Positions 38,938 to 61,917 of a stretch of 64,000 nucleotides of DNA are shown here, piece by piece. The stretch comes from Nitrospirota bacterium (lineage in GTDB: Bacteria > Nitrospirota > Nitrospiria > SBBL01 > JAADHI01), in contig JAJDBX010000013.1 in NCBI GenBank assembly GCA_029261135.1, forward strand, positions 1 to 64,000. Direction: 5' to 3'. A program made the translations under genes and the position numbers. Numbering within the stretch: the first letter of the stretch is position 1; the number at the start of each line of letters is the position of its first letter. The notes under the pieces are model-generated. The model did no database searches and was not told the origin of the DNA. It saw only the letters and a program-made list of their open reading frames with translations.

Positions 38938-40586
38938 TCATGTGGTGTGGGATGGGCAGAAGATCTCTCTTAACTCTTTCCCGACAAAAGCGGTACAGGC
39001 TGAGGGCATAAAACTTTCAGAAGACGCCTCCTGCATTTCTTGTTGAACCCGTTCAGGGTAGGGCGCATTCAATAAGCTGCCCGGGGAGAGATACGGAAAG
39101 ATTTCGTCATACCGGCGAACTTCAGTGGCACTCACCCGTCGATGAATATGAGAGCGATTCAATTGTGAAGGATGCCGTAAACCAGAGGCCGCTAAAAGCT
39201 CAACAACACTTGTTATCGTCTTTTTATGAAAATTGGCAACTCGTTTTTCCTTTTCGGACACAACAAGTCCTTTGGTAAAAGCCGGATCTTGCGTCGCAAC
39301 ACCGGTGGGGCATTTGTTGCTGTTGCACTCTAAGGCTTGGATACAACCTAATGCCAGCATCATTGCTCTGGCCGAGTTACATAAATCCGCCCCAAGTGCA
39401 AAATTTTTAACCATATGAAATCCTGTGAAGATTTTTCCACTGGCGATCACTTTGATCTCTTTTTTCAAATCAAACCCCATGAGGATATCGATGACAAATG
39501 CCAATCCATCTCTTAGCGGTGTTCCAACCGAATTTGTATATTCCAAAGGGGCTGCGCCTGTGCCGCCTTCGCCACCATCGACCGTAATAAAATCCGGTTT
39601 GATCCCGGTTTCCAGCATCGCTTTGCAGATTGAGGCAAATTCACTTCGCCTTCCGATGCAAATTTTGAATCCGATCGGTTTTCCAGTGGATAACATCCGT
39701 AGCTTCTGTTTAAAGTCCATCATTTCAATCGGCGTTGAAAAACAAGAATGAACCGGAGGAGAATCGATACGAGTGTGTGGTAACACGCCTCTGATTTCAG
39801 CTATTTCCCGTGTATTTTTGTCCGCAGGGAGAATCCCGCCATGCCCTGGTTTAGCCCCTTGTGAAAGCTTTATTTCGATCATTTTAATGTTTTCGTGGGC
39901 AGATCTTTCTTTGAATAAGTCCTCAGAAAAATGCCCCGACTTGTCACGGCAGCCAAAATAGCCGGTACCTACTTGCCAAATAAGATCCCCCCTGGCATCA
40001 AGTGATAGGGACTGACCGAACCTTCCCCGGTGTTGTGGGCAAAGCCGCCAATCTTGGAGCCTCCATTAAGCGCTAAAATCGCATTTTGGCTCAAAGCGCC
40101 AAAACTCATTGCCGAAATATTCAATAGGCTGGCGTGATACGGTTTGTCACATTCACTCCCCCCAACCATGACTCTGAGGTCATGGTTGATCTCTTGATCA
40201 TGCAGGGCACTTAGAGAATGATCCATCCACTCATAACCGGTGCGATAGACATTCAACTTCGTCCCGAACGGGACAGTATCACGTTGACCTTTTGCCCTTT
40301 GATAAACAACCGAACGAAACATTCGGTTGATGGGTGTGCCATCAGTATTTGACTCAACAAAATATTGGTGAATCGGAGGACGAAGTATTTCCATAATCCA
40401 TCGTCCCCGGCCAATCACTGGGAAATTTCGCCACAGGGTGTGCTTCGCCTGTAATATGTCATAAATACCGCACAAAATAAGCGGAATGATGACATACATC
40501 GACCACAAGATCGGAAACCAGAAATAAGCGACGGCACTCACAAAAGAGAGGCTTCCAATAGAATAGATGAAGAATATTTTGCGCAT
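38938..40586 (-). pseudogene. FMN-binding glutamate-synthase-family protein, split by a one-base deletion
   Basis: The N-terminal part (from 40586) has two membrane segments and then HDLRVMVGGSECDKPYHASLLNISAMSFG of the GltB-like alpha/beta barrel. It stops just after HLMPGG. In the next frame the protein continues (DLIWQVGTGYFGCRDKSG, IEIKLSQGAKPGHGG, TVDGGEGGTGAAP, ATQDPAFTKG). Adding one G to the run at 39987-39992 restores about 549 residues, the normal family length. These stand-alone membrane-linked homologues of the glutamate-synthase FMN domain have no proven reaction. Real or artefactual break is undecided. Confidence 0.85.
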
Positions 40587-42721: not shown

Positions 42722-42870
42722 CTTAAAATCTCATTAAAAAGATTAAACCGGGTTTTTATAGCATATCCGCTGAGATGAAGAAAGCCGTCCCAAGCGATTA
42801 AAAACCGGACATTATAGGGTGACAAGCGTGTTCAGGTCATTATAAAATGTGCGTCACTTTGGGAGGGCTT

Positions 42871-43992
42871 ATGGAAAAACAAGGATTTCTAAACGGTTTA
42901 TCCAATCTAGAGTTAAGACTGATTGAGGTCTGCCGTGCAATGGCAGAAGATGACAAAGTCTTTGTGAGCGCAATAGACCTGCTGAAAGTCATCGCCCTCA
43001 ATGACTTTCATTTGGACGAAGAAAGCTTTGAAGAAGAATGTGAGACACTGAATGCTGAAGTCTTGCCCCTCGACCAATACCCTGAAGAAAGCGTCGGGAA
43101 GGCCTATCGTACCCTGCTTCAGATGGGACTGCCCTGGAGAAAGCGATACCCGCTTTTCAGTTTAAGCGGCATGATTGGCGATTTTCATGATGAAGTCCCT
43201 TTCGGACCGGAATCGGTCGAGCTGCGTCTTTCAAAAACCACACAAGTCCTGTTGCCCATCGATAAAAAACCGCTATTACCCCTTGCCCTTTTAAATGGCG
43301 TGAAATTATCAGACGGAAGCGAAGTCCCGCCTCACAATTTGGAAGAACTCTGGCTCGCCATGGAGCACGTCCGCCAAGAACCCAACTTAACATTGCTGGA
43401 TTTAATGGAGGTAATTCCAGGGCCTGATTTTGGGCCGGGTGGCACCGTTTGTGATTTTAATGAGGTCTACACCCTCTATGAAAAAGGCGAAGGATTCATC
43501 ACATTAAGAGGAGAAATCGATACCATCATTGATGGTGGTCGCACACGAGTGGCGATTAAATCGCTTCCGCATGGGGTGTTGATTCAGGCCGTTCTAGAAC
43601 AAATTCGTGCCCTCAGTCTGGAAGAAAACTTCCCATTTTTCATTTTTAAAGATACATCTCAAGGGATGAATACCCATATCGTGATTGATATGCCCCCCGC
43701 ACTTTCAGCAGAACAACTCAAATCCGTGCTTTATCAAAAAACCGATCTAGAGCGATCTATACGTTTTAAGTGTGCCTTCAAAGATAACAAGGCTTGGTTG
43801 CTTGAAGGCCCTCTGATTTCTATTTTGAAAAAAGCGGTTTCCCATTGCACTTCGGCTTGGACACAAAAAGATGGTGGATCTGTTGATGTCGTTCCTTTAT
43901 TTCGCGACATTATTCGGGTCGGAGGATACAAAAATCCCATGACAAAACTCACCGATGATCGTCGGACAACTCTTCTTAAAGGTATCTCATGA
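42871..43992 (+). CDS. GyrA/ParC-like protein lacking the catalytic tyrosine
   Basis: The 373-residue protein follows the type IIA topoisomerase A-subunit breakage-reunion domain: AYRTLLQMGLPWRKRYPLF matches the GyrA segment before the active site, GMIGDF matches GNFGSI, ELRLSK matches the stretch after the active site, VPPHNLEEL (about 152-160) matches IPPHNLTEV and VIPGPDF (181-187) matches HIPGPDF. In this ungapped alignment the Arg-Tyr pair of GyrA is Glu114-Ser115 (Ser codon 43213-43215). The N-terminal GLKPVxRR motif and the C-terminal beta-pinwheel are missing. DNA cleavage is therefore not expected; DNA binding or a structural role is inferred. ATG 42871 follows GGGAGGG; an ATG at 42847 has no such site. 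Confidence 0.8.
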   Translation: MEKQGFLNGLSNLELRLIEVCRAMAEDDKVFVSAIDLLKVIALNDFHLDEESFEEECETLNAEVLPLDQYPEESVGKAYRTLLQMGLPWRKRYPLFSLSGMIGDFHDEVPFGPESVELRLSKTTQVLLPIDKKPLLPLALLNGVKLSDGSEVPPHNLEELWLAMEHVRQEPNLTLLDLMEVIPGPDFGPGGTVCDFNEVYTLYEKGEGFITLRGEIDTIIDGGRTRVAIKSLPHGVLIQAVLEQIRALSLEENFPFFIFKDTSQGMNTHIVIDMPPALSAEQLKSVLYQKTDLERSIRFKCAFKDNKAWLLEGPLISILKKAVSHCTSAWTQKDGGSVDVVPLFRDIIRVGGYKNPMTKLTDDRRTTLLKGIS

Positions 43993-44864
43993 AGGCATTC
44001 GTTTTTGCCAATGACCAAAATCCGACACAAGAGATTAACGGCTTGAGTTATGCCTATCTTCCACTTGAAGGTCGCCCCATACTACTCTACGTCTTGATGG
44101 CCTTGGATCGTGTTTCTGATATTGAAGAAATTACTGTTGTTGGGTCTCAGAAAAAGATCATGCGGGTGATTGAATCGGTGATGTTTGAGATGCCCTTTCA
44201 AAAGACAATTGCTGTTTTGGAACAAAAACCCACTTTATTTGAAAGTATGGCGGATGTGAACAAAGATCGGGGAGACGGACTTGAAATGCTTTCAGAACCT
44301 GCGCTCTTTTTACCAGGAAATATCCCCTACCTGACCTCAGCCGAAATTTCGACTTTTATTGCCGCATCGGATATGAGAAAATCTGATGTTTGTCTTTCAA
44401 TCGCCTCAAAAAATGCCCTCAAATTTTTCGCTCAAAAAGAAGTCACTCGCCAAAATTCCCCCTCATCAAGTCAGACTGTTCGCCTTGGGAATCTTTTAAT
44501 TGCACGAAGCGAGTCGCTTTTCAAAAATATCGTCTTGAAAACCTTTTATGAACATTTAAAAGAATCAAGCTATGATGCAAAAACATTGGAAGGTTTCTTT
44601 AAATACCCAGGATTTAATGATGAAAGCAAGGCTCAAAAACCTTCCCTGTCTGATCTTGAAGAAAACCTGTCACAATACCTAAACTTAGACTTTAAGTTTT
44701 CTGAGACAGTGACCGCTGGAAATACCTTTGCTGTACGTGATCATAATGCCTATCAATTTGTACAAAGGCAATTTAGTGACTGGCGGGAACAGATTATCGA
44801 ACTCAAAAGTGAGGACGGGGAACAAATTTGTTCGATTTCAGGAACCATCTGCGATTCCAGATAA
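43989..44864 (+). CDS. MobA-like nucleotidyltransferase-fold protein, probably inactive
   Basis: The 291-residue protein has the outline of the MobA/NTP-transferase fold: a first strand AFVFAND, then YLPLEGRPILLYVLMALDRVSDIEEITVVG (read in parts), and LFLPGNIPYLTSAEI at the position where active enzymes have GDxPxL. The usual glycine-rich GxxxRM loop is absent, and the metal-binding Asp appears as Asn in PGNIP. It is thus likely non-catalytic. The C-terminal 150 residues match nothing I recognise. Its ATG overlaps the stop of the GyrA-like gene (ATGA), so the two are made together. Confidence 0.65.
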   Translation: MKAFVFANDQNPTQEINGLSYAYLPLEGRPILLYVLMALDRVSDIEEITVVGSQKKIMRVIESVMFEMPFQKTIAVLEQKPTLFESMADVNKDRGDGLEMLSEPALFLPGNIPYLTSAEISTFIAASDMRKSDVCLSIASKNALKFFAQKEVTRQNSPSSSQTVRLGNLLIARSESLFKNIVLKTFYEHLKESSYDAKTLEGFFKYPGFNDESKAQKPSLSDLEENLSQYLNLDFKFSETVTAGNTFAVRDHNAYQFVQRQFSDWREQIIELKSEDGEQICSISGTICDSR

Positions 44865-59823: not shown

Positions 59824-60582
59824 TTATTTCCCCAAAGACTCATGAGGCCGTTCTGAGTTATATTCGTACATCCATCGGGTTGTTCTTTCCCGGACTTCAT
59901 CCAAATCTGAGAACAGATACAAATCTAAAACATCTTCCCGATAGGTCCGGTTAAACCGTTCGATATAAGCGTTTTGCGCAGGTTTGCCTGGCTTAATGAA
60001 GTCTAAGTCCACGTGGTGTTTTTTTGCCCATTCACGCAGTTTCTGTGAAATAAATTCCGGGCCATTATCCATCCGAATGTATTTGGGATACCCCCGCCAT
60101 TCGGCTATACAATCGAGCTTTCTTGTCACACGTTCAGTAGGGAAAGATCGATCAATTTCTATCCCCAAGGCTTCTCGATTGAAGTCGTCTATGATGTTCA
60201 AGGTGCGATAGGTTCCACCTGCTGCAAGACTGTCCCGCATGAAGTCCATTGACCAACAAATGTTCGAATAAAGCGGTTGAACCAAGGGTTCTGGGTTTCT
60301 ACTGGGAAAGCGTCTCTTCGGCTTTTTTCTTAAATTCAGGGACAGTTCACAGTACACACGGTACACGCGTTTATGATTCCAGGGCTGGCCCTGTATTTTT
60401 AAACGCTGAAACATCTTATTAAATCCCCATCTCGGTTTATCTTTTGCCAACTGCCGCAAATGCGTCTCAATCATATTGTCCTCATTTGGCTTCGCCTGAT
60501 AACGATAGGCCGTGCGACTCACCCCAAAAAGGCCACAGCTTCTTCTTTCGGAGAAGCGGTGAGCTTCAATGGCATATCGCAC
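59824..60582 (-). pseudogene. IS3-family OrfB integrase, frameshifted at its end
   Basis: The 252-residue frame has the HTH_21 segment (RWGFNKMFQRL), and the DDE core: WSMDFMRD, IRMDNGPEFIS and AYIERFNRTYREDVL with the catalytic Glu. It stops at HESLGK; in the next frame the normal end continues (NKTPYEFLRASQ). Removing one G from the run at 59830-59833 restores it. The loss of about a dozen residues may or may not abolish activity. It would be made as an OrfAB fusion by programmed frameshifting. Confidence 0.85.
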
Positions 60583-60605
60583 GAGCGTTTTTCGATCAGC
60601 TGGCT

Positions 60606-60872
60606 TTACAACTTTTTTTCAATCACATCCTTTAAAACCTGATGATCCAGACTCAATTCTGAATACATCCGCTTCAGTCGAAGGTTTTCATCTTCAAGGG
60701 CCTTCAACCTTTTAAAATCTGAGGCTTCAAGGCCGCCATATTTTGCCCGCCATTTATAAAATGTCGCATCACTCATCCCATTTTTTCGGCACAAATCAAC
60801 AACGCTCATCCCGTTCTCTGCTTCTTTCAGTATCGACATAATTTGGGAATCGGTAAATCTCGATCACTTCAT
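60606..60872 (-). pseudogene. IS3-family OrfA, with a stop at codon 3
   Basis: The HTH_Tnp_1 domain is clear (FTDSQIMSILKEAENGMSV, LCRKNGMSDATFYKWRAKYG) followed by a leucine-zipper helix (LEDENLRLKRMYSEL). The natural start ATG at 60872 has an AAGGAGG site, but its third codon is TGA. The next in-frame ATG at 60839 would lose the first 11 residues of the HTH region. The gene is probably inactive in this copy. Confidence 0.75.
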
Positions 60873-61917
60873 CGTAAAGCCTCCTTCTCCATTCATTCTA
60901 AAAGAAAACTCTACTCCTAACTGGTTCTATTTTAGGGGAGGCTTACCCCAGGCCTCTGCAAAACGATCCAGCTCAAGGCTTGCTTCCTGCTCTGTGGTGG
61001 AGTGATAGATTCGCTTCAAATCTGCTGTGACGGCTTTGTCGTCTTTCCAGGGGACGTATTTTAATGCATTGCGTACCATGTGGATGATGCAGAGCTGAAG
61101 CCTGGCATCGGGAAAAGCGGTGTTGCCCGAATCAGGAAAACCACTAAGACCATCAACACAGACAATTAGAATCTCCTCGACGCCACGGTGTTTAAGCTCT
61201 GTGAGTACCTGTAACCAGAATTTGGCCCCCTCTGTCTCGGCGATCCACAGCCCCAATAACTCCTTGTGCCCCTCCAGATTCACGCCCAGTGCAAGGTAGA
61301 TCGATTTGTTGATCACTCGCTTGTCCTGACGAATCTTGAGCACGATACAATCAAGATAAACAATGGGATAAACGGCATCCAGAGGACGATTCTGCCATTG
61401 AATGACTTCTTCCATCACGGCGTTGGTGACCTTTGATATCAGCCCTGCTGAGACCTCGGCACCATACATCTCCTGAAGAGCATCAACGATATCTCGTGTG
61501 CTCATCCCTTTGGCATAAAGGCTCAGTATCTGATCATCCATCCCCGTGATACGGGTTTGGCCTTTGCCAATGATGTCGGGTTCAAATGTGGCTTCACGGT
61601 CACGCGGCGTATCAATCACGATTTCGCCATGATGGCCTTTTAAGGTTTTTGGACTGTAACCGTTACGACTGTTACCGCTATTGTGACCCTTCACATCATA
61701 GGGACTATAACCAAAATGGGGTTCCATCTCGGCTTTTAATGCGGCCTCGACGGTGATTTTTGTAAGCTGAGCGCTGAGGGCGCTTAGGTCTTCTGGGGTT
61801 TTAAGGTCTTTCGCTAGCTCGGATGCTAGCGCTTTTATCTTTTCTTGTTTCTCTCTCATACTCATTATTAGCCTCCAATTGTAAGGTAAGAAATAATGAG
61901 CAGTTACTCAATTTATT

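Follow-up and report, generated by a model that had tools for sequence, protein, structure and literature searches.

A short GyrA-like protein, very probably non-cleaving, conserved beside the resident gyrase in bacteria of the class Nitrospiria

What is the role of a short GyrA-like protein without the catalytic Arg-Tyr pair in a bacterium that also encodes a normal gyrase, and is this role tied to the MobA-like protein encoded by the overlapping downstream gene? We addressed this question for the pair of genes found in the window, by which we mean the whole stretch of 64,000 nucleotides that was analysed. Direct reading confirmed the positions previously given for the GyrA-like open reading frame (42871–43992) and for its ATGA overlap with the next gene (43989–43992). 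The sequence GGGAGGG ahead of it favours the ATG at 42871 as the start. The features of the locus are as follows.

42861..42867, + strand: GGGAGGG, likely ribosome binding site (direct reading)
42871..43992, + strand: short GyrA-like protein, 373 aa (Pfam, hhalign, model against PDB, family alignment)
43132..43227, + strand: former active-site loop, codons 88–119, motif GDxHD(E/D)xPxGP (family conservation)
43210..43215, + strand: Glu114-Ser115 at the position of the GyrA catalytic Arg-Tyr (profile alignment, family columns)
43989..43992, + strand: ATGA stop-start overlap of the GyrA-like and MobA-like genes (direct reading)
43989..44864, + strand: MobA-like nucleotidyltransferase-fold protein, 291 aa (Pfam, alignment of relatives)
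44319..44321, + strand: Asn111 in PGNIP, at the metal-binding Asp of the GDxP motif of this fold (comparison with relatives)

Elsewhere in the window, two neighbouring open reading frames on the minus strand (38938–40586) resemble the halves of a glutamate-synthase-like protein and look split by a frameshift or stop. Transposase and integrase-like open reading frames lie near both window ends (264–719 and 59824–61865).

Homology to GyrA and the missing parts

Sequence comparison puts the homology of the 373-residue protein to GyrA far above chance. Its sole Pfam match was DNA_topoisoIV (PF00521, E=2.8e-22), ParC and GyrA sequences from the PDB matched it at up to 2e-20, and the profile-profile comparison by hhalign of 16 homologues of this short form with 13 GyrA/ParC proteins returned E=2.8e-38 over 295 columns; scores against the NCBIfam GyrA/ParC models were far under the model cut-offs. 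The predicted structure aligned to GyrA residues 42–492 with a Z of ~16 (16.5 in the comparison with the PDB). The mean pLDDT of the model was 63, with the tower modelled well and the winged-helix part poorly (pLDDT ~40–60). Because the alignment behind the model contained real GyrA rows, we take it as showing compatibility with the GyrA fold and not as independent proof. The protein keeps the winged-helix and tower fold of GyrA, the winged-helix part of the model being of low confidence: a winged-helix DNA-gate domain (residues ~9–121) and a tower (~135–312) are followed by a short C-terminal part (313–373) that closes with a GyrA-like DxRRTxL motif. The relationship to GyrA recognised in the initial annotation is borne out.

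The profile alignment places GPESVELRLSK on AYRYTEARMTK and E114-S115 on the Arg-Tyr pair, with no gap between, a register that upholds the earlier reading of codons 43210–43215 as Glu-Ser in place of Arg-Tyr. The column of the catalytic Arg is occupied by Glu in 14 of the 16 aligned short-form copies, by Asp and Ala in one each and by Arg in none, and the histidines of HPHGD are replaced in all 16. The Tyr column varies with family: f5 and f3 keep Tyr, f1 has Ser, and f11 has Leu or Gln; the six aligned rows that retain Tyr are all from f5 or f3 and carry Glu before it. Because GyrA and the f5 and f3 proteins all have this Tyr, its loss is a late event and not a defining trait; the proposed absence of the catalytic Tyr holds for the window copy, which has Ser, and does not extend to the f5 and f3 relatives. 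On the simplest reading of these columns, the ancestor would have kept the Tyr after the Arg, the His residues and other parts were gone, and f1 and f11 would have lost it separately.

Several further elements are reduced or absent in the short form. Some 20 residues have been lost from the interval between the Tyr position and the PPHN motif, and the loop holding the Ile that intercalates DNA in GyrA is three residues shorter. The N-terminal arm (~30 residues ahead of the GLKPVxRR position) is absent; the GLKPVxRR motif itself, described before as missing, turned out to be diverged, reading GLSNLELR here and GLTPLQRR in relatives. The C-terminal pinwheel is absent as proposed, the protein stopping at 373 aa, and so is the C-gate coiled coil, which all short-form sequences lack: in the model, positions around residue 370 fall on GyrA residues near 490, and the DxRRT motif that comes after the coiled coil in GyrA ends the short protein.

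Distribution, ancestry and conservation

The window genome belongs to the class Nitrospiria and to an order that also holds Ca. Manganitrophaceae MAGs and bears the name Ca. Troglogloeales (PMC9040806). We identified the short form in 17 of 270 genomes of the class (16 besides the window genome), distributed over families f1 (7/8 genomes), f3 (1/1), f5 (6/6) and f11 (3/3). Short-form matches in these 270 genomes scored 500–640 bits, and the other matches listed were of GyrA/ParC type and scored <140 bits. Screening 396 genomes of the phylum revealed no short form beyond those 17. Among the matches listed from named genomes, the full-length ones came from two Ca. Manganitrophaceae MAGs (58–59% and 49–50% identity). 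A viral scan with the protein gave no match, and nothing in phage and plasmid records covered 80% of the query; the best phage and plasmid matches listed showed 21–31% identity and several were annotated as gyrA or parC. One genome, G001, carries beside its intact copy a broken second fragment of the gene (G001:C38:106-276) with 49% identity over residues 8–66 and two stops. Most genomes of family f13 have two full-length GyrA/ParC-type proteins and none has the short form; one of the two such proteins in G045 (f13), G045:C1, sits on a long branch.

The short form makes up one clade (support 100/100) on a stem of ~3 changes per site. This clade branches outside Nitrospirota GyrA and all GyrA/ParC sampled, a placement that its long branch can mislead, and its internal branching order, f11, f5, f1, matches the grouping in GTDB. 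Recent duplication of Nitrospirota gyrA was rejected as the origin in view of the long stem and the position outside the sampled GyrA/ParC. The window genome has one normal GyrA of 825 aa, with Arg-Tyr, beside its only GyrB gene, and parE was not found in it; the question raised earlier, whether intact gyrA and parC exist separately, is thereby answered with a single intact gyrA-gyrB pair.

Among close f5 pairs, dN/dS was 0.09–0.13 at an unsaturated dS of ~0.1, from which we conclude that the gene is maintained. The former active-site loop (residues 88–119) ranks third in conservation among 342 windows of 32 residues. D104, D107, P110, G112 and P113 of its motif are invariant in 16/16 sequences and H106 in 15/16, the position being Phe in one relative, and GyrA carries other residues at the motif positions. 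This pattern suggests that the rebuilt loop may form a new working surface at the old active site. The net charge of the DNA-gate domain is −8 to −17 in 15 complete short-form copies, compared with 0 to +5 in the GyrA/ParC set (n=27).

Proposed role and alternative explanations

The loss of the cutting parts together with preservation by selection points to a probable new job, and the protein is very probably a repurposed, non-cleaving derivative of GyrA. To this extent the initial annotation is sustained by the low dN/dS and the intact resident gyrase; the obligate complex with the MobA-like protein that it also proposed is not. Our preferred reading, to which we assign a probability of roughly 0.42, is that the protein descends by vertical inheritance from an ancient paralogue of the A subunit of type IIA topoisomerases, does not cleave DNA and acts by protein contact, perhaps on gyrase. 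A more specific form of this reading is put forward tentatively: over a long time, the GyrA breakage-reunion domain would have turned into a conserved protein that regulates the resident gyrase without cleaving DNA and uses the old loop as its working surface. The protein would neither bind nor cleave a G-segment, and its rebuilt acidic surface would work through contact with another protein; it could regulate or protect the single gyrase by docking at the GyrA DNA-gate or G-segment site, with the GyrB TOPRIM domain, or GyrA in a mixed dimer, as possible partner. We consider gyrase the likeliest target because the protein shares its fold with a gyrase subunit, there is one gyrase in the cell, and the known gyrase modulators include acidic proteins. 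The N-terminal arm of gyrase contacts GyrB, and the docking at GyrB is weakened since this arm is missing. The survival of Tyr in f5 and f3 counts against the preferred reading, and so does the nature of the neighbouring genes: no link to topology genes was found among the neighbours of the GyrA-like gene, which include Dus, Maf, GDH, CBS, EamA, PilZ and citrate synthase. In G023 (f11), genes for a MerF-like mercury transporter (L045:6505-6762) and, downstream, a RecQ-like helicase (L045 10573-12285) lie near the GyrA-like copy.

Taken together, the genes around the GyrA-like gene suggest metabolism and not topology, and thereby lend weight to the main rival, a possible but unlikely one, in which the GyrA fold serves as scaffold for a site unrelated to gyrase. 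GDxHD(E/D) would then be the binding site of a metal or ligand, making the protein an enzyme or sensor, a reading that the near-invariance of the motif and its difference from GyrA also favour. However, DNA_topoisoIV was the only family matched and no known metal-site family was found for the protein, and the replacement of H106 by Phe in one relative speaks against this rival as well.

That the GyrA-like and MobA-like proteins form an obligate complex of two pseudo-enzymes we regard as improbable. The window MobA-like protein falls below the Pfam cut-off of 27 bits for NTP_transf_3 (PF12804; 0.0017, 19 bits), all 12 relatives match this family (best 5.4e-14), and the model of the window protein (pLDDT 37) was too poor for use. 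As previously noted, it has lost the Gly-rich loop and the GDxP Asp (Asn at 44319–44321), and it also lacks the Lys of NKA. The proteins of the paired f1 lineage carry Asn or His in place of the GDxP Asp and no longer have the Lys of NKA. Both residues are retained in unlinked relatives, as is the Tyr of the GyrA-like protein in f5 and f3. In f1, catalytic residues are missing from both proteins; this joint loss is one event, however, and proves little. The two genes are adjacent in seven genomes, all f1, and the 4-base overlap is present in all seven f1 genomes that carry both. Against an obligate complex, both genes are present and unlinked in seven genomes (six f5 and one f3), the MobA-like gene occurs alone in three (G006, G010 and G012) and the GyrA-like gene alone in three, all f11, whose proteins lack the Tyr despite having no partner; moreover, the association arose only once in evolution. 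The coupled pair of the initial annotation is therefore better described as a late lineage feature, given the unlinked copies in f5 and f3 and the lone copies in six genomes. Of the 18 genomes of the order, 17 carry a member of the MobA-like family, which the genomes sampled outside the order all lack. In f5 and f3 the MobA-like gene has a CBS-domain gene nearby (plus GDH in G013), and Dus and Maf are found close to the GyrA-like gene of f5; most f1 genomes show the order Maf-Dus / GyrA-like / MobA-like / GDH-CBS, merging both neighbourhoods, and G006 retains the merged neighbourhood without the GyrA-like gene. Within the preferred reading of a non-cleaving paralogue, synthesis of the protein in f1 would have become coupled to that of a catalytically stripped MobA-like protein as a late, lineage-specific addition.

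Still less probable is an enzyme that continues to cleave or nick DNA, using Tyr in relatives and another nucleophile here. The Tyr of f5 and f3 and the high conservation of the loop would fit such an activity, but the Arg and the His pair are gone, the Ile loop is shortened, the gate is strongly acidic and the old Tyr column varies among S, Y, L and Q. Decay of a gyrA duplicate, envisaged in the initial annotation and suggested by the lost residues and domains, is very improbable and contradicted by purifying selection (dN/dS ~0.1), by reading frames open in all 17 genomes that carry the gene, by 65 invariant positions in the short-form alignment, by the long stem that the copies share outside the clade of Nitrospirota GyrA and by a conserved former active-site loop, which is the reverse of what decay would produce.

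Comparison with known systems

In agreement with the initial annotation, which knew of no described system of this kind, we found no conserved non-cutting stand-alone GyrA relative beside a resident gyrase in the open-access papers searched. Should the protein act on gyrase, it would represent a regulator made from the enzyme's own subunit and would offer a new route to studying control of the DNA-gate; if it does not, a topoisomerase fold would have been reused elsewhere, in bacteria related to manganese oxidisers.

The MobA-like family resembles MobA/IspD-type nucleotidyltransferases through the PF12804 matches of its members, and the window copy departs from them in the Gly-rich loop, NKA Lys and GDxP Asp described above. 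Among the protein inhibitors or protectors of gyrase covered by the parts of a review that we consulted (PMC10886550) are MfpA, Qnr, YacG and Igy; MfpA is an acidic DNA mimic and Igy a proposed one. Acidic character is common to these two and the GyrA-like protein, which we use as a working analogy only, and none of the four is described as a GyrA homologue in those parts of the review.

The closest comparison is with the breakage-reunion domain of GyrA/ParC (PF00521). The known role of GyrA/ParC-type proteins is that of enzymes that cut DNA. The short form shares with them the winged-helix and tower, the IPPHN and LMExxPGPDF motifs and the terminal DxRRT, but differs in the absence of Arg-Tyr (in the window copy), HPHGD, arm, C-gate and pinwheel, in the deletion past the Tyr position and the shorter Ile loop, and in its acidic gate. 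The short form is a member of the GyrA fold family by homology, yet it lacks the features that define the enzyme.
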